Assembly (NCBI RefSeq): GCF_025961575.1
Contig: NZ_JAOQNX010000002.1
Location: 124,001 to 188,000, forward strand
Source: Rhodoblastus acidophilus
Lineage (GTDB): Bacteria > Pseudomonadota > Alphaproteobacteria > Rhizobiales > Beijerinckiaceae
Reading direction: 5' to 3'
Length of the DNA stretch: 64,000 nt
The notes below the pieces were generated by a model, which saw only the letters and a list, made by a program, of their open reading frames with translations, was not told the DNA's origin and searched no databases. The translations under genes and the position numbers were made by a program. Below are positions 32,589-39,510 of the stretch, one piece after another (the stretch's first letter is position 1; each line of letters starts with the position of its first letter).

Positions 32589-33998
32589 TCAGGCGGAGGC
32601 TTCGGTGGGCGCCGCCGGCCGGCGACGGCGCAGCAGCGGGATCATGGTGACGATCGCCGCCAGCAGGAACAGGATTTCAATGCTGTAGACGACATTGTAG
32701 GGGGTGGCCGGACCGAAGAAATCGGCGCCCGGCGTGGCCGCGACCGTATCGCGGATCACGCCGCCCAGGGCGATGGCGATACCGGCGGCCGAGGCCTGGA
32801 CCGCGCCCCAGGCGCCCAGCGCCAGACCGGCCTGCTCTTCCGGGGCCAGATTCATCGTCGCCGTCAGCGTGCCATGGCCGAACAGGCCCGCGCCGAAGCC
32901 GATCAAGGCGGTGCCAATGGCGAACAGCGCCATGGAATTGCCCAGCGGCGCCGAGAAAATCACGCAGAGGAAGGCGGGAATGCCGACCAGCGCGCCGTAA
33001 CAAGCCATCAGGAACGGATCCATGCCGCGGCTGAGCACGCGCGAGGCCAGGCCGAAGCCCAGCAGACCGCCGATGGCGAGCGCCGCCGTCAGTTTCGTGG
33101 TCTGAGACACGGCCAAGTGCAGGATCTGGCCGCCATAGGGTTCGAGCAACACGTCTTCCATGCTGAAGGCCATGGTGCCGAGGCCGACGGCGATCAGACG
33201 GCGCTTGGCGCCAAGGCCAGCCGTAAAAGTGGTCCAGGCCTCGCGGAAGGACGGCTGCTTGCGCTCCACCTTCGGCCCCGTATAGGGCGTGCGCGCCTCC
33301 TGCTGCCACATGGCGATAACGTTGAGAACCATGGTGGCGACGGCGGCGCCTTGAATCACCTGGATCAGGCGCGCGGGGCTGAAATCGGCCAATGCGGCGC
33401 CGAACACCTGGGCGCAGATGATCATGCCGAGCAGCAGCATGACATACATCAGGCCCACGACCTTGGGCTGCGATTCGACCGGAGCGAGATCGGTGGCCAG
33501 CGCCAGACCCACCGTCTGGATCATGTGCAGGCCGGCGCCGACCAGCAGGAAGGACAGACCGCCGCAGGCATAGCCGATCCATTCCGGCGTGTTCACGGAT
33601 TCGCCGAATTTGGTCAGAACCAGGATGGCGAAGGGCATGATGGCGAGGCCGCCGAACTGCAGCAGCGTGCCCTGCCAGATATAGGGGACGCGCTTCCAGC
33701 CGAGCGCCGAAACATGGTTGTCAGAGCGGAAGCCGATCAGCGCGCGCAGCGGGGCGAAAACCAGCGGCAGCGAAATCATGATGCCGACCAGCGAGGCCGG
33801 CGCGCCCAGTTCGACGATCATGACGCGGTTGAGCGTGCCGACCAGCAGAACCAGCGCCATGCCGACCGAAACCTGGAACAGGGAAAGGCGCAGAAGCCGG
33901 GACAGCGGCAGGTCCGGCGTGGCGGCATCGGCGAACGGGAGATACTTGCTCCCGAGGTTCACCCATTTCTGCATCAACTTGGCGCTGAGAGGATTCAT
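32589..33998 (-). CDS. pucC: PucC LH2 antenna assembly protein
   Basis: A 469-aa, 12-helix protein of the BCH2/PucC branch of the major facilitator superfamily. Seen: LPLSRLLRLSLFQVSVGMAL, LNRVMIVELGAPASLVG, RSDNHVSALGWKRVPYIWQG and MEDVLLEPYGGQILHL, all typical of PucC/LhaA/BchP-associated proteins. It is needed for LH2 assembly, probably by delivering or shielding bacteriochlorophyll. I start at ATG 33998 (MNPLSAKL, matching PucC of relatives from memory); an in-frame TTG at 34040 lies inside the pucBA1 downstream hairpin and is unlikely. It is downstream of and parallel to the pucBA array, so read-through past the hairpin could express it. Confidence 0.93.
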   Translation of the reverse strand: MNPLSAKLMQKWVNLGSKYLPFADAATPDLPLSRLLRLSLFQVSVGMALVLLVGTLNRVMIVELGAPASLVGIMISLPLVFAPLRALIGFRSDNHVSALGWKRVPYIWQGTLLQFGGLAIMPFAILVLTKFGESVNTPEWIGYACGGLSFLLVGAGLHMIQTVGLALATDLAPVESQPKVVGLMYVMLLLGMIICAQVFGAALADFSPARLIQVIQGAAVATMVLNVIAMWQQEARTPYTGPKVERKQPSFREAWTTFTAGLGAKRRLIAVGLGTMAFSMEDVLLEPYGGQILHLAVSQTTKLTAALAIGGLLGFGLASRVLSRGMDPFLMACYGALVGIPAFLCVIFSAPLGNSMALFAIGTALIGFGAGLFGHGTLTATMNLAPEEQAGLALGAWGAVQASAAGIAIALGGVIRDTVAATPGADFFGPATPYNVVYSIEILFLLAAIVTMIPLLRRRRPAAPTEASA

Positions 33999-34050
33999 GG
34001 ATGCGGCGGCCCGTTTTTGCGGCGGCGTTTGCTCCGCCAAGTATCAGAAA

Positions 34051-34077
34051 GCGGCCGGCGTCATGGACACCGGCCGC
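34051..34077 (-). terminator. Hairpin after pucBA1
   Basis: GCGGCCGG and CCGGCCGC flank an imperfect inner stem with an ATG loop. On the minus strand it is followed by TTTCTGATACTT. It lies between pucA1 and pucC and probably attenuates read-through rather than fully stopping it. Confidence 0.6.
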
Positions 34078-34131
34078 CAGAAAAACTCAGAAGTCGATCT
34101 GGCGTTGCGACACGCCAAATTCAACTTGGGA

Positions 34132-34317
34132 TCAGCCGACGGAGATCGTCTCGGTGATCGCGGCCTTCTTCAGACCACCCTGCCAATAGGCCTTGAACCA
34201 GGTGGTGTTGTTGAGGAGCGCGAGATGCACGAGGATCGCGATGACGGTGACGGAGCCCAGCAGAGCGGGGATGCCAACGGCCGGGTTAACGACGGTCCAG
34301 ATCTTGCCTTGGTTCAT
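34132..34317 (-). CDS. pucA: LH2 alpha apoprotein, copy 1 (divergent)
   Basis: 61 aa. N-terminal [20 protein letters not shown], one transmembrane helix with His31 (B850 ligand), and Tyr44-Trp45 that hydrogen-bond B850 in high-light LH2. It differs from the other copies in [18 protein letters not shown] (NN for SH, K for P) and in the C-terminal tail ITETISVG. Tails beyond KKAA are absent from the known mature alpha chain and are probably trimmed. TAAGGAG from the pucB stop serves as ribosome site. Confidence 0.96.
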
Positions 34318-34329
34318 GATGAGAACTCC

Positions 34330-34458
34330 TTAGTGCAGCCAGGGGGTCAGCGAATAGGCGAGAACATGCGCAAAGAGCGCGATGACGCCAAACACGCGAG
34401 CGCCGTCAATGACGTGCTTGTGAAGTTCTTCGGCTTGCGCCTCGTTGAGTACAGCCAT
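34330..34458 (-). CDS. pucB: LH2 beta apoprotein, copy 1 (divergent)
   Basis: 42 aa, too short for many gene callers; read directly from the minus strand. Begins [20 protein letters not shown] and ends [13 protein letters not shown]. The B850-ligating His31 (30 in the mature chain) is kept. It is the most divergent of the five beta chains (HKHV for [11 protein letters not shown] for FLGLALV). AGGTGG stands close to the ATG at 34458. 12 bp separate it from pucA1. Confidence 0.95.
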
Positions 34459-34489
34459 TGTCCACCTCTCAATAAAAGCCACTGTTTAT

Positions 34490-34614
34490 CGTGCGTTGAC
34501 CGCACGCGATTCTACACCTGTGGCTCGGCGACCGGCGCATCCGACGACAAGATCGTCAGCGGCAAGTGGACGTCACTATAGCTTGACAGACGTTCTTGTC
34601 AACGACGAATTACA
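34490..34614 (-). promoter_or_regulatory. pucBA1 promoter, PpsR-type site and leader hairpin
   Basis: Minus strand: -35 TTGACA (34602-34597), 16-bp spacer, -10 TATAGT (34580-34575). TGT-N12-ACA, the PpsR/CrtJ operator form, spans 34597-34614 over the -35. In the leader, CGTGCG/CGCACG pair around a 5-base loop (34490-34506). The leader is about 110 nt. Confidence 0.75.
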
Positions 34615-34657
34615 AATTTTTAATGTGGCAGACAGAAAAGCCAAGACGCTGAATTAT

Positions 34658-34694
34658 AAAAGAAAACCGGCCAGCGCCCGAGAGCGCTGGCCGG
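34658..34694 (-). terminator. Rho-independent terminator of pucBA2
   Basis: A perfect 11-bp stem (CCGGCCAGCGC and complement), 6-base loop, then TTTTCTTTT on the minus strand. Confidence 0.92.
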
Positions 34695-34739
34695 CGGATT
34701 TCAGCACTTGCGCGACATCGGAGGATGTCGCTGAAGCAC

Positions 34740-34925
34740 TCAGCCGAGAACGGTGGTCTCGATGGCCGCAGCCTTCTTCACACCACCCTGCCAGTAGGCC
34801 GGGAACCAGGTGGTGTTCGACAGGATCGCGAGGTGCACGAGCAGCGCGATAACGGTGACGGAGCCGAGCAGAGCGGGGATGCCGAAAGCCGGGTCAACGA
34901 CGGTCCAGATCTTGCCTTGGTTCAT
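34740..34925 (-). CDS. pucA: LH2 alpha apoprotein, copy 2
   Basis: 61 aa: [20 protein letters not shown], helix with His31, [16 protein letters not shown] and a tail [10 protein letters not shown]. Tyr44-Trp45 is present (B850-type). Asp replaces Asn at position 11, as in copy 4. It has Asn37 where copies 3-5 have His. The ribosome site is TAAGGAG at the pucB2 stop. Confidence 0.96.
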
Positions 34926-34937
34926 GATCAGAACTCC

Positions 34938-35225
<288 letters not shown>

Positions 35226-35281
35226 ATTTTTTAATGTCGCGGAAAGCTGCGCGTCAGCAGGCGGCGGCGCCCCCCGGAATC

Positions 35282-35316
35282 AAAAAGCCGACCAACATCC
35301 GAAGATGCTGGCCGGC
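35282..35316 (-). terminator. Rho-independent terminator of pucBA3
   Basis: A 13-bp stem with two G-T pairs, a TTCG tetraloop (35303-35300), followed by TTTTT on the minus strand. Confidence 0.92.
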
Positions 35317-35357
35317 CCTAAGGCTTAGCCGACGTCAGGCGACGTCAGCGAAGGCGC

Positions 35358-35540
35358 TCAGCCGAGAACGGAGGTCTCGATCGCAGCGACCTTCTTGCCA
35401 CCCTGCCAGTAGGCCGGGAACCAGGTGGTGTGCGACAGGATCGCAACATGCACGAGGATCGCGATCACGGTCACGGAGCCGAGGAGCAGCGGGAGGCCAA
35501 TCGAAGGATTGACGACGGTCCAGATCTTGCCTTGGTTCAT
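35358..35540 (-). CDS. pucA: LH2 alpha apoprotein, copy 3
   Basis: 60 aa: [20 protein letters not shown], His31, [20 protein letters not shown], ending TSVLG. Tyr44-Trp45 is present. The tail lacks one residue relative to the other copies (GGKKVAA for GGVKKAA), a change within the segment probably trimmed after synthesis. Confidence 0.96.
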
Positions 35541-35552
35541 TGTCGGAATTCC

Positions 35553-35827
<275 letters not shown>

Positions 35828-35871
35828 TTTTTTTAATGCGCGCATTGTCGCAACATCTGGACCGATAGGCG

Positions 35872-35908
35872 CAAAAGAAAACCGGCCGGCGCTCAAGGCG
35901 CCGGCCGG
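35872..35908 (-). terminator. Rho-independent terminator of pucBA4
   Basis: A perfect 11-bp stem CCGGCCGGCGC with complement, 5-base loop, then TTTTCTTTT on the minus strand. Confidence 0.92.
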
Positions 35909-35955
35909 CGAATTGCAGCATTCACCCAACGTCAAACGACGCTGCGGAAGAAAAC

Positions 35956-36141
35956 TCAGCCGAGAACGGTGGTCTCGATGGCCGCAGCCTTCTTCACGCC
36001 ACCCTGCCAGTAGGCCGGGAACCAGGTGGTGTGCGACAGGATCGCGAGGTGCACGAGCAGCGCGATAACGGTGACGGAGCCGAGGAGGGCGGGGATGCCG
36101 ACGGCCGGGTCAACGACGGTCCAGATCTTGCCTTGGTTCAT
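35956..36141 (-). CDS. pucA: LH2 alpha apoprotein, copy 4
   Basis: 61 aa: [20 protein letters not shown], His31, [16 protein letters not shown], tail [10 protein letters not shown]. It is nearly identical to copy 2 except F14V and N37H, which suggests a recent duplication or gene conversion. Tyr44-Trp45 is present. Confidence 0.96.
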
Positions 36142-36153
36142 GATCGGAGCTCC

Positions 36154-36545
<392 letters not shown>

Positions 36546-36582
36546 AATTTGAAAGTTCACTTGCCAGACTGAGACAGTCCGA

Positions 36583-36774
36583 TCAGCCGGCGATGAACGA
36601 GGTCTCGATCGCGGCGGCCTTCTTCACGCCGCCCTGCCAGTAAGCCGGGAACCAGGTGGTGTGGGTCAGGATCGCCAGATGCACGAGGATCGCGATCACC
36701 GTCACGGAGCCAAGGAACAGCGGGAGGCCGACGCTCGGGGGGACGACAGTCCAGATTTTCGCCTGATTAGCCAT
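36583..36774 (-). CDS. pucA: LH2 alpha apoprotein, copy 5
   Basis: 63 aa: [20 protein letters not shown], one residue longer at the N-terminus than the other copies, with Pro in place of Asn/Asp before the helix. His, Tyr and Trp ligands are kept ([16 protein letters not shown]). Tail [11 protein letters not shown]. The VVPP start recalls B800-820 alpha chains, but Tyr-Trp argues for B850. Confidence 0.95.
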
Positions 36775-36788
36775 TAGTCAGATCCTTC

Positions 36789-36920
36789 TCAGTGCAGCCA
36801 GGGAGTCAGGGTGAAGGCGAGGAAGTGCGCGAACAGGGCGATGCCCAGGAACACCCGGGTTCCGTCGATCACGTACTTATGCAGCTCTTCGGATTGCTCC
36901 GGGGTCAGCGTAGCAGCCAT
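36789..36920 (-). CDS. pucB: LH2 beta apoprotein, copy 5
   Basis: 43 aa: [20 protein letters not shown], then [20 protein letters not shown] and WLH. One extra Ala at the N-terminus and FTLTP for FSATP. TGA rather than TAA stop. First operon of the array and the most upstream one. Confidence 0.95.
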
Positions 36921-37003
36921 TTTCCACCTCTTATGTCAGCCGCTTTTGATTCACGCGCCAGGCCTGCGCACAGACCCCGGACCCTGCGGCTGTAGGGCCA
37001 GAA

Positions 37004-37084
37004 CTACATCTTTCCTGTCGGTTTAGAATGTAGATGACGAAGCCAATCTACAGCGGCGCCAACGGCTGTCAATCGGCATTTACA
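37004..37084. promoter_or_regulatory. pucBA5 promoter, PpsR-type site and TGTAGAT inverted repeats
   Basis: -35 TTGACA (37072-37067), 16-bp spacer, -10 TAGATT (37050-37045), perfect TGT-N12-ACA at 37067-37084. Unlike the other four promoters, the -10/start region has TGTAGAT (37029-37035) and its complement ATCTACA (37046-37052), plus CTACAT at 37004-37009. This is a likely extra operator. Confidence 0.7.
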
Positions 37085-37349
37085 GGGCTTGTTGTCCATT
37101 TTTGCAGCGTGCGCGGACCGGGAGGTTTTCCTTTCTTTCCTACCGTTTGACTTGGATGATAAGACTATCCGCGGCGCGAGTTGGCGCAGCTTGCGCTTTC
37201 GTGCTAAATCGCAAAACCAGGGCGCGTGGGTGTCCGGAATGGAAGGCGGGTCAGCGGGACGGAATGAGCTAAACGTCTGCGCAGCTTGAATTTTCTCGAC
37301 GCTTTCTCGCCAACGCCCGATGCGAATTCCGAACTGAAGGAACAAGAAC
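37085..37349. promoter_or_regulatory. Upstream region of the 332-aa repeat protein
   Basis: 265 bp with no accepted ORF. It must contain the plus-strand promoter. The PpsR-type site at 37067-37084 lies between the two divergent genes and could serve both. AAGGAACAAGAAC is the ribosome site for ATG 37350. Confidence 0.4.
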
Positions 37350-38348
37350 ATGCCCACGATCATCACGCGACTTTTTGCCGCAGAGGAGCAAGCCCTCGCC
37401 GCCCTCGACGCGGTGAAAACCAAGTTCGCGGATCATGAAATCAGTCTGGTCACGCCCGCCAACGCGGAAGGCGCCGATCTGGAAAGCCTGATCGTCAAGG
37501 GCGGCGTCAAGCCGCAAAACGCGCCCGCCTATGCCGAGGCCGTGCGCCAGGGCAATTCCGTTCTGACGCTGCGGACGTCATGGGGCATCGCCAAGGAGGT
37601 GAGCGCCCGCCTGGAGGCGTATGAGCCGCTGGCGCCGATCGTCGCCGAGACCGAGCACACCTCTTTCGTCACCCCCGGCCTGGACAACCCGGCCCCGTTC
37701 TCGACGCTGCTGGGCCTGCCGGTTCTCGAGGAATTCAAGTCCAACATCCAGCTCGTCGACCACCCGGCGCCGTTCTCGGACCTGCTGAAGCTGCCGGTTC
37801 TGTCCAATATCGGGCCGTTCTCGAGCCTCATCAACATCGGGCCGTTCTCGGGGCTGATCAACGCGCCGACCCCGCTGTCGAGCACGCTGAGGCTGCCGCT
37901 GCTGGTGGACTTTGACGCGTGGGCGCGCAACTCGAAACCCTGGTCGAGCCTGCTCAACATCGGGCCGTTCTCGAGCCTGCTCAACATCGGACCGTTCTCC
38001 GGCCTGATCAACGCGCCGACCCCGCTGTCGAGCGCCCTGCGGCTGCCGCTGCTGGTCGACTTTGGTGCATGGGCCCGCAATTCAAAACCCTGGTCGTCCA
38101 CGCTCCGCATCGGGCCGTTATCGAGCCTGCTCAACGTCGGACCTTTCTCGGGCCTGATCAACAATCCGACCCCGCTGTCGAGCGCGCTGCGGCTGCCGCT
38201 GCTGGTGGAGATCCCGTCGGTGATCCACGACGCCAAGCCCTGGTCGTCCCTGCTCAATGTCGGGCCGTTCTCGGGCCTGATCAACAATCCGACCCCGCTG
38301 TCGAGCGCGTTGAAGCTGCCGGTGCTGCTGAACACCAAGAAAAAGTAA
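37350..38348 (+). CDS. Unusual repeat protein with stress-protein-like N-terminal domain
   Basis: A 332-aa protein. Residues 1-105 resemble the general-stress-protein 17M/YflT fold: MPTIITRLFAAEEQALAALD, GGVKPQNAPAYAEAVRQG and NSVLTLRTSWGIAKEVSARL. Residues 108-332 are built from about 16 short units with P-(F/L/W)-S-x-x-(L/I), such as NIGPFSSLI, NIGPFSGLI, NAPTPLSSALRLPLLV and SKPWSSLL, grouped in larger repeats of about 50 residues that are also visible in the DNA (37800-38330). No signal peptide or clear membrane helix, but the repeats are rich in Leu, Ile and Pro and could bind membrane or pigment protein. It is divergent from pucBA5 and followed by a terminator. I do not recognise the repeat family. 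A role in antenna assembly or protection is inference from position. Confidence 0.85.
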   Translation: MPTIITRLFAAEEQALAALDAVKTKFADHEISLVTPANAEGADLESLIVKGGVKPQNAPAYAEAVRQGNSVLTLRTSWGIAKEVSARLEAYEPLAPIVAETEHTSFVTPGLDNPAPFSTLLGLPVLEEFKSNIQLVDHPAPFSDLLKLPVLSNIGPFSSLINIGPFSGLINAPTPLSSTLRLPLLVDFDAWARNSKPWSSLLNIGPFSSLLNIGPFSGLINAPTPLSSALRLPLLVDFGAWARNSKPWSSTLRIGPLSSLLNVGPFSGLINNPTPLSSALRLPLLVEIPSVIHDAKPWSSLLNVGPFSGLINNPTPLSSALKLPVLLNTKKK

Positions 38349-38370
38349 GGCGGCGCGACCGCTGTTTTCG

Positions 38371-38402
38371 GCTCGCCGGGTCCGTCCCGGCGAGCTTTTT
38401 TG
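38371..38402 (+). terminator. Rho-independent terminator
   Basis: A perfect 10-bp stem GCTCGCCGGG/CCCGGCGAGC with TCCGT loop followed by TTTTTTG, 23 bp after the repeat-protein gene. Confidence 0.93.
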
Positions 38403-38532: not shown

Positions 38533-39510
38533 TTAAAACACGGCGTGGTCGCCGCGGTCCGGTGCGACGCCGCCCGCGATCACCGCCGCGTAGAAATCGA
38601 ACAGGGTTTCTGTTCCCGCCGACGGGGTGCCCTCGGCGTCGTAGCGGCCGGTTTCCGGGTTCAGCCACAGCATGGATTCGGTGGCGTAATAGCGGCCGAT
38701 GCGCGCCAGTTCCGCCTTGTCCGCCAGACGCGACGACAGCGGCGACAAAAAACGCAGGACGCCAATGATGACGTCCATCATCGCCACCGGCACGCGCGTG
38801 AATTTCGGCTCCAGCCCCAGCAATCTGAACAGCTCCTCGCCCTGCTGGCGCGGGGTGATCGCCTCGCCCGGACCGCCAATCGGCAAAATGCGATTCTGGC
38901 GGGTCTCATCCTCCAGACACTCGGCGAGATAGGCGCCGAGATCGTCGTCACTGATCGGCTTGCAGGCGGTCAGCGCGCCATCGCCCAACAAGAGATAAGG
39001 TTTGCCCGCGCGCAACCGGTCGATCTGGCCGGACAGGGATTTGAAAAAGGCGGTGGGGCGCACGATGGAATAAGTCAGCCCCGACTCGATCAGCGCTTTT
39101 TCGAAGGCCAGTTTTGCGCGCTGGAACTCCAAAAGCGGTTTTTGCACGCAGATCGCGGACAACTGAACAAATTTTTGGACGCCGGCCTGTTTCGCCGCCT
39201 CGAGCAGGTTCACATGGGCCTGGTGGTCGATCGCCCAGGCGTCTTTCGGCGCGCCGGTGCGCGAGGCCATGCAGGAGACGACGGCGTCGAATCGCTCATT
39301 GGCGAAACCGTCTTGAGCCAGCGAGGCGGGGTCGGAAAAATCGACGAAGCGCGCGCCCTCCGGCGCCGCGCGGTCGGGGCGGCGGCGCAGGAAACTGACG
39401 ACCTCATAGCCGCGCGCCGCCAGCGCGCGCGCCGTCGCCTGGCCGATCGTGCCGGTCGCGCCCGCCAGACACACTCTTTTCGCGCTCGCGCCCGCCAAAA
39501 TCTCGCTCAT
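38533..39510 (-). CDS. bciA: Divinyl (proto)chlorophyllide 8-vinyl reductase, BciA type
   Basis: A 325-aa NAD(P)-binding protein: [19 protein letters not shown] (Rossmann loop), [98 protein letters not shown] and [20 protein letters not shown]. This series is specific for BciA/plant DVR and not for generic NmrA proteins. It reduces the C8 vinyl group in bacteriochlorophyll synthesis. I start at ATG 39510; the longer frame to 39585 is not needed. Its place beside the puc array fits. Confidence 0.93.

Follow-up and report, generated by a model that had tools for sequence, protein, structure and literature searches.

The locus described here raises the question of what a protein with a long tail of short repeats does beside an array of genes for the LH2 antenna of Rhodoblastus acidophilus, from which it is transcribed in the opposite direction. 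Few membrane pigment complexes have been studied as closely as LH2, and Rhodoblastus is the organism behind the textbook LH2 structure; outside Rhodopseudomonas palustris, LH2 is generally regarded as made of alpha and beta chains alone. It is well supported that the repeat protein is a member of a family, so far undescribed, that goes with the LH2 antenna, a partnership established by genomics with no expression or protein data, and the protein is probably an overlooked partner or subunit of LH2. By the window we mean the whole stretch of DNA analysed, 64,000 nucleotides long.

The repeat gene and its surroundings in the window

The gene (37350-38348, +), recognised as an ORF with homologues, encodes 332 amino acids. 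A plausible ribosome-binding site, AAGGAA, inferred from the sequence, stands 7 nt 5' of the ATG (37337-37342, +), and an intrinsic-terminator-like stem of 11 pairs followed by a run of T's lies past the stop (38370-38396, +), in agreement with a preliminary description of this DNA, which had given the gene a terminator of its own. The ORF is a real gene, judged by its third-position GC (GC3) of 0.88 and by its dN/dS against the 81% identical copy in genome G002 (0.25 in the N-domain, 0.68 in the repeats); the long ORF on the opposite strand (37529-38338, -) we attribute to the repeats.

Residues 1-95 form the N-terminal domain (37350-37634, +), and the repeat tail, predicted to lack secondary structure, runs from about residue 111 to 327 (37680-38330, +). 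The preliminary description had put about 16 units of the form P-(F/L/W)-S-x-x-(L/I) in this tail, arranged in 50-residue super-repeats, and both statements held: the motif occurs exactly 16 times, compared with 0.27 per tail on average, and 3 at most, over 2000 shuffled tails, and the units are spaced by 25, 15, 9, 10, 22, 9, 9, 10, 22, 9, 9, 10, 22, 9 and 10 residues, so that 22+9+9+10 makes up a super-repeat of 50. At the DNA level, TRF reports an array of about 3.3 copies (37805-38294, +) with a period of 150 nt, 88% matches and a score of 608.

The position that had been assigned to the gene beside pucBA5 was confirmed, as both chains of this divergent neighbour (beta and alpha; 36583-36920, -) match PF00556. 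The pair belongs to an LH2 array of five pucBA pairs and then pucC (32589-36920, -; pucC at 32589-34040, PF03209). On the other side, the convergent gene (38533-39510, -) encodes an NAD(P)H-binding reductase (PF13460, 4e-22), whose relatives adjoin the repeat gene in three other loci (L016-L018) and lie near it in two more (L175, L176); the name bciA given to it before rests on the preliminary description only. Two TGT-N12-ACA sites, a motif of the PpsR type, occur in the gap between pucB5 and the repeat gene (36991-37008 and 37067-37084), the second overlapping a sigma-70-like -35 hexamer directed to pucBA5 and lying some 265 nt ahead of the start codon of the repeat gene. As 18 of the 21 other loci checked also have such sites, either upstream of pucB or within the divergent gap, they mark the puc promoter; the operator proposed for the repeat gene is present as a motif, and any action on this gene is putative.

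Some observations concern the antenna genes themselves. The window genome has nine LH2 alpha genes at three places (window 34132-36920, and contigs C18 and C24 of the assembly, G000), and a motif scan of this genome placed the repeat gene beside the LH2 cluster of the window only. The pucA5 product (36583-36774, -) begins MANQAKIW and not MNQGKIW, which shifts by one residue the Met1 that, in alpha chains of LH2, is the position of the B800 ligand (PMC9618040); alphas of the MANQ type resembling pucA5 were also seen in loci L091 and L096.

Occurrence of the family and its place in puc clusters

Across the sampled Alphaproteobacteria, the repeat protein was found in 49 of 54 LH2-positive genomes and in none of 177 LH2-negative controls. 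The window genome and that of Bradyrhizobium sp. BTAi1 entered the set because they have the repeat gene; without them, the count is 47 of 52. The LH2 alpha profile used (A2) was built only from clusters carrying the repeat gene, and unlike LH2 types may therefore have been missed.

Within the taxonomic family of the window genome, the window protein as the query reached 5 of the 11 genomes of its genus (its own included) and 18 of 298 family genomes, a few of them by the N-domain only. A profile of 20 members (A1) matched 113 of the 298 at E <= 1e-3. In 19 of these, the best matches had E <= 1.2e-24 and their translations hold repeats; in the other genomes, among the matches listed, the best were at 1.8e-11 or weaker and fell in or near N-domain positions. 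Reaction-centre genes (PF00124) are present in 97 of the 298 genomes, among them all 19 with the repeat protein. The search for LH2 alpha covered 80 of these 97, leaving out 17 genomes of genus g9 as well as the 201 without a reaction centre, and found it in 19, exactly the 19 with the repeat protein, so that the protein occurs in 19/19 LH2-alpha-positive genomes and in 0/61 LH2-negative phototrophs. The split falls inside four genera (g21, g28, g29 and g30); in a fifth, g1, the repeat protein is present in the 5 genomes that have a reaction centre and missing from the 6 that do not.

The pattern extends outside the family. Elsewhere in the order, LH2 alpha was found in 23 of 397 sampled genomes, 24 with BTAi1, and the repeat protein in 20 of these 24 (E <= 1.2e-16), compared with none of 56 LH2-negative controls, four of which gave weaker N-domain matches without repeats (best 7e-14). 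In the rest of the class, LH2 alpha was found in 11 of 385 sampled genomes, 10 of them with the repeat protein, and none of 60 LH2-negative controls had repeats, with four weak N-domain matches (best 3e-11). The translations of the best control matches (L131, L151) and of weak matches from the family (L055, L056) contained no repeats. The five LH2-positive genomes without the protein are the four from the order, all of genus g73 (G328, G370, G434, G483), and one from the rest of the class (G802); those of g73 have two to four LH2 alpha matches each. Four members (in G322, G551, G770 and G116) have only one to three recognisable units. A scan of a contig collection with the window protein alone found no relative, whereas an alignment of seven closer members found that of BTAi1; a plasmid search with the G703 member returned nothing.

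The gene neighbourhood points the same way. As reckoned from coordinates, none of the 49 repeat genes is more than 2.3 kb away from an LH2 alpha gene. Of 40 loci annotated with profiles for both LH2 chains, for PucC and for the repeat protein, 35 hold the repeat gene in the puc cluster; the remainder are two LH2 clusters without it (L186, L187), a separate gamma-like locus (L168) and two duplicate places. The gene is found after pucC (pucBA-pucC-gene), between pucBA and pucC (pucBA-gene-pucC) or between two pucBA pairs (pucBA-gene-pucBA-pucC). In other clusters, that of the window among them, it is divergent from pucBA, and in one annotated locus it is convergent with pucBA. In BTAi1, only 14 bp separate pucC from the repeat gene, and a bacteriophytochrome-like gene lies upstream; bacteriophytochrome control of the LH2 operon has been reported for this strain (PMC3899966). 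The homologous start of the repeat gene in a Roseiarcus MAG is about 60 bp past the pucC stop, and the longest ORF overlaps this stop by 4 bp. That the gene has been kept by the puc genes through rearrangement is strong evidence that it functions with LH2.

The preliminary description had suggested an antenna-associated scaffold, a membrane-surface protein or a pigment-binding factor, to be checked by conservation beside puc genes in other genomes and to be refuted by homologues in non-phototrophs away from pigment genes. The adjacency in 49/49 cases, in several gene orders, meets the check, and the search for refuting cases found repeat-bearing homologues in none of the 177 LH2-negative genomes, which gave N-domain matches only, of stress type where they were read. 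The association with LH2 is thereby strongly supported by co-occurrence and neighbourhood, though this support does not extend to the scaffold or pigment role that had been proposed, and one qualification applies to the search, namely that paralogues of one or two units do occur away from pigment genes, in LH2-bearing genomes.

The window genome itself encodes one such paralogue, of 166 aa with two 25-residue units, next to a gene that reads as a der/engA-like GTPase, and this paralogue has a counterpart in G002. Still shorter ones, of 116-117 aa, are present in G001 and G002. The short-paralogue loci are L002 (1495-1992, -), L007 (1501-1998, +), L012 and L013, and the roughly 20 kb surrounding each of them (L020-L023) showed no LH2 alpha. 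A different multiplication is seen in G103, with several repeat-protein loci (L079, L080, L081), two genes in a row on contig C10, one beside puc on C16 and one on C6, which suggests a local expansion.

Predicted structure and repeat period

The stress-protein-like N-domain of the preliminary description was borne out. In an AlphaFold2 model computed from the window protein and 12 relatives, residues 1-100 are confident (block-mean pLDDT 84-95), with a beta-alpha-beta-(alpha-alpha)-beta-alpha arrangement like that of stress proteins of the YflT type. The family profile also reaches, at 1.8e-18, the N-domain of a DUF2382 protein from an LH2-negative genome (L131), which carries, besides DUF2382, a weak YflT match (0.002). 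Direct comparisons gave less: PF11181 (YflT) is absent among the matches of the window protein up to E 5 and was hit by 2 of 28 members, at best with E 0.014. The tail is predicted to be without secondary structure, its pLDDT staying below 50 for nearly all of residues 103-332, and the BTAi1 member (195 aa) is likewise predicted as a folded head and an unstructured tail, except for two short tail helices of low confidence.

No named family was found for the protein in the collections searched. The window protein has two Pfam matches, both far below the cut-off, and none in NCBIfam; among 28 members compared with both at E <= 0.1, no family recurred in more than two (best E 0.0012 in Pfam, 0.017 in NCBIfam). 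PDB chains gave no match to the family profile at E up to 10, Foldseek found no PDB match to the window model at E <= 1e-3, and PHROGs gave nothing for two members. Matches from VIA-align 2 (mostly PII-type, alternative-complex-III and others; Z <= 6.9) were not read for function, since the likeness may only mean a common arrangement. The family is also unnamed in the openly licensed literature searched, which does not prove its absence from print. The earlier statement that no family with this repeat pattern is known thus stands as regards Pfam and NCBIfam families for the tail, but the pattern has a precedent in the LH2 gamma of Rps. palustris (PMC9618040).

This organism has the only LH2 for which we found a third chain of known structure (PDB 7zcu, 7zdi, 7ze3 and 7ze8; PMC9618040). 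In that report, gamma has 97 residues in six units and runs along the outer cytoplasmic side of LH2 as an undulating, extended ribbon, which spans six of the nine alpha/beta pairs and holds one bacteriochlorophyll per unit through a serine ligand, at a spacing of 27.6 A (PMC9618040). By autocorrelation, its unit period is 16 (z 19.9 at lag 16).

We therefore looked at the tails of 26 representatives of the repeat family, about one per taxonomic family or genus. Their combined autocorrelation z is 25.4 at lag 16 and 21.9 at lag 32, the next best lag reaching 3.5, and taken singly 16 of the 26 exceed a z of 3 at lag 16. The other ten, the window protein among them (z 1.5, with peaks at 9 and 25), stay below 3, and several favour 25-27. 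The five representatives whose gene is divergent from pucBA (the window, f13, f18, f49 and f147) are all among these ten, which hints that the divergent members are possibly a second subtype with a spacing of 25-27 residues; besides the window, their loci are L174, L180, L181 and L184.

The unit consensus of the family is (A/T)-P-(L/F)-S-x-x-(L/F)-G-(L/M/I)-P-x-L-(S/T)-(K/R). In several members the N-domain is followed by five 16-residue units. Read by eye, Beijerinckiaceae/Rhizobiales MAGs of g29 and g30 keep the 16-residue register over twelve steps without an indel, two to four of these units being degenerate. Over the family, the number of units varies from about 1-2 to 16 and does not match a nine-membered ring. 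In a set of 55 tails that includes close relatives and paralogues, 38 are net positive, and only one has a 19-residue Kyte-Doolittle window above 1.6, compared with 2.31 for an LH2 alpha of the window.

Sequence likeness to gamma itself is weak. Scored in phase against the unit profile of the family, gamma does better than 19,975 of 20,000 column permutations (25 were as good), and 44-52 of 5000 do as well when any phase is allowed; its absolute score is negative, -22 bits over the six units, and because the motif used to collect the units had its anchor in the Pro/Lys column, that column is favoured. With gamma as the query in the 54 LH2-positive genomes, 10 of 24 among the matches listed, in 9 genomes, lie inside the repeat gene, with E from 7e-4 to 0.76. 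A conserved Ser occupies unit column 4 of the family in 100 of 145 non-redundant units. The ligand Ser of gamma, in the motif (H/Y/F)-S-G-x-P-L, corresponds to column 7, which is Leu/Phe in 96 of the 145, and the ligand is thus not conserved in place.

A clear relative of gamma (E 1.7e-8) was seen outside Rhodopseudomonas, in a genome of the window's genus (G009, contig C8). It is an ORF of three units DPKTG(E/Q)YKSYSGYPLLVNDK with a period of 20 (L160 1177-1674, +; L168 7610-8107, +), and the 8.6 kb examined around it gave no match to LH2 alpha, LH2 beta or pucC.

Possible roles and comparison with known systems

The reading we favour, with moderate confidence, is that the repeat protein lies on LH2 as a gamma-like ribbon and has a head of stress-protein type. 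This small alpha/beta head, presumably on the cytoplasmic side, would bear a long non-helical tail of short hydrophobic units, which would lie as a ribbon on the outer cytoplasmic rim of LH2, as the gamma of Rps. palustris does, each unit, 16 residues long in many members, matching one alpha/beta pair. The tail would steady or shape the ring, and it may hold extra bacteriochlorophyll, possibly through the conserved serine. The restriction to LH2 genomes, the gene adjacency and the period of 16 in much of the family are observed; the folded head and the unstructured tail, as in the extended gamma ribbon (PMC9618040), are predicted; and binding to LH2, the cytoplasmic side, one unit per pair and pigment binding are all inferred. 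Several points speak against a gamma-like ribbon: 10 of 26 representatives lack the period, the similarity to gamma is weak, the conserved serine is not in the ligand column of gamma, gamma has no head, the unit numbers do not fit a ring of nine, 5 of 54 LH2 genomes have no repeat gene, and the family is absent from the PDB although the LH2 of close relatives has been solved. More tentative, and in our judgement somewhat doubtful, is the wider proposal that a third subunit of LH2 has been missed in many Alphaproteobacteria, Rhodoblastus included. It would be a headed ribbon wrapped around the ring, adding or positioning extra pigments, with a unit number proper to each lineage, about 5 x 16 residues in several and 12 x 16 in some Beijerinckiaceae MAGs, and gamma would be a stripped-down relative.

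The main rival of the gamma-like ribbon is a factor for LH2 assembly or delivery, whose tail would transiently bind nascent alpha/beta pairs or bacteriochlorophyll, hand them over with PucC and leave the ring. It would fit two LH2 structures of Rhodoblastus, 1kzu and 1ijd, which lack the repeat protein. One LH2 alpha of the window is identical to that of 1kzu in 50 of 53 residues, and one of G001, a genome carrying the repeat gene, is identical to that of 1ijd in all 53. A factor that leaves the ring would explain this absence; loss during purification, or expression that depends on growth conditions, would explain it equally. Often, too, the repeat gene has pucC for a neighbour, lying past its end or separating it from pucA, and LH2 assembly is the function of PucC itself (PMC4949548). 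However, the 16-residue period in 16/26 representatives suits a fixed periodic surface better than transient binding, and gamma, with the same period, stays in the complex; we regard such a factor as unlikely, without dismissing it.

Less probable still is an organiser of the membrane, whose repeats would bind several LH2 rings and cluster or anchor them at the cytoplasmic face without any pigment. Tails of up to 12-16 units exceed what one ring of nine pairs needs, and the positive charge of 38/55 tails, with a strongly hydrophobic window (>1.6 Kyte-Doolittle) in 1/55, is compatible with it; yet many members have about five units, and some one or two, and still lie beside LH2 genes. PucE of Rhodobacter capsulatus is a non-pigment 'gamma' that stabilises LH2, and the repeat protein could be its counterpart, encoded in a cluster of the same type. 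The place of the repeat gene after pucC does resemble pucBACDE (PMC9231093), but a match in place alone, with no sequence comparison behind it, is weak, and we give this identification very little credence. Almost none is left for a general stress protein that merely lies near puc genes: it could draw on the N-domain shared with the DUF2382/YflT-type protein of an LH2-less genome, but the repeat-bearing forms track LH2 (49/54 vs 0/177) and remain adjacent to it through at least three gene orders, a distribution that already contradicts the plain stress-protein reading.

As an LH2 companion has been kept through rearranged gene orders, with a gamma-like period in many lineages, the LH2 seen in most preparations may be incomplete, or a dedicated factor may have been overlooked. 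The repeat genes, such as the one after pucC in Bradyrhizobium sp. BTAi1, are named and testable candidates for an extra B800-type pigment, for ring shape and for the stability of LH2.

Among known systems, the gamma of Blastochloris LH1 is a single transmembrane helix and not a repeat ribbon. It is an extra small polypeptide of the antenna ring (PMC9788563, PMC10212510) and serves LH1, whereas the repeat family is tied to LH2. PucC (PF03209) shares the cluster with the repeat gene and is often its neighbour, and it is a membrane protein of 12 helices that acts in LH2 assembly (PMC4949548); a relation in sequence to the repeat protein is not expected. The typical LHII cluster is pucBACDE, and in it PucD and PucE of R. 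capsulatus, like the repeat gene, come after pucC (PMC9231093). With the YflT or general stress protein 17M-type domain (PF11181), the link is the N-domain held in common with the DUF2382 stress-type protein; the repeat family has no DUF2382, and a tail of LH2-type units was seen in LH2 genomes only.

The closest comparison remains the gamma of Rps. palustris. Tandem units of 16 residues occur in 16 of the 26 representatives, the family is likewise tied to LH2 genomes (49/54 vs 0/177), and the units share Gly 8, Pro 10, Leu/Ile 12 and Lys 14. Both carry a serine in the unit, in every unit in the case of gamma, and both have an extended chain without secondary structure, which for the family is predicted (PMC9618040). 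On the other hand, gamma has 97 residues and no head, whereas the family has an N-domain of about 95 residues ahead of the tail, and the window copy is spaced by 9, 25 and 50 residues, not 16. Gamma was reported, by BLASTp, in Rhodopseudomonas only (PMC9618040), whereas the repeat family is found across the class. Because the serine column, the head and the period of the window copy differ, we do not call the family a gamma, only one that would work like it; not met in the open literature searched, it is placed here as a putative third LH2 chain of inferred mechanism.
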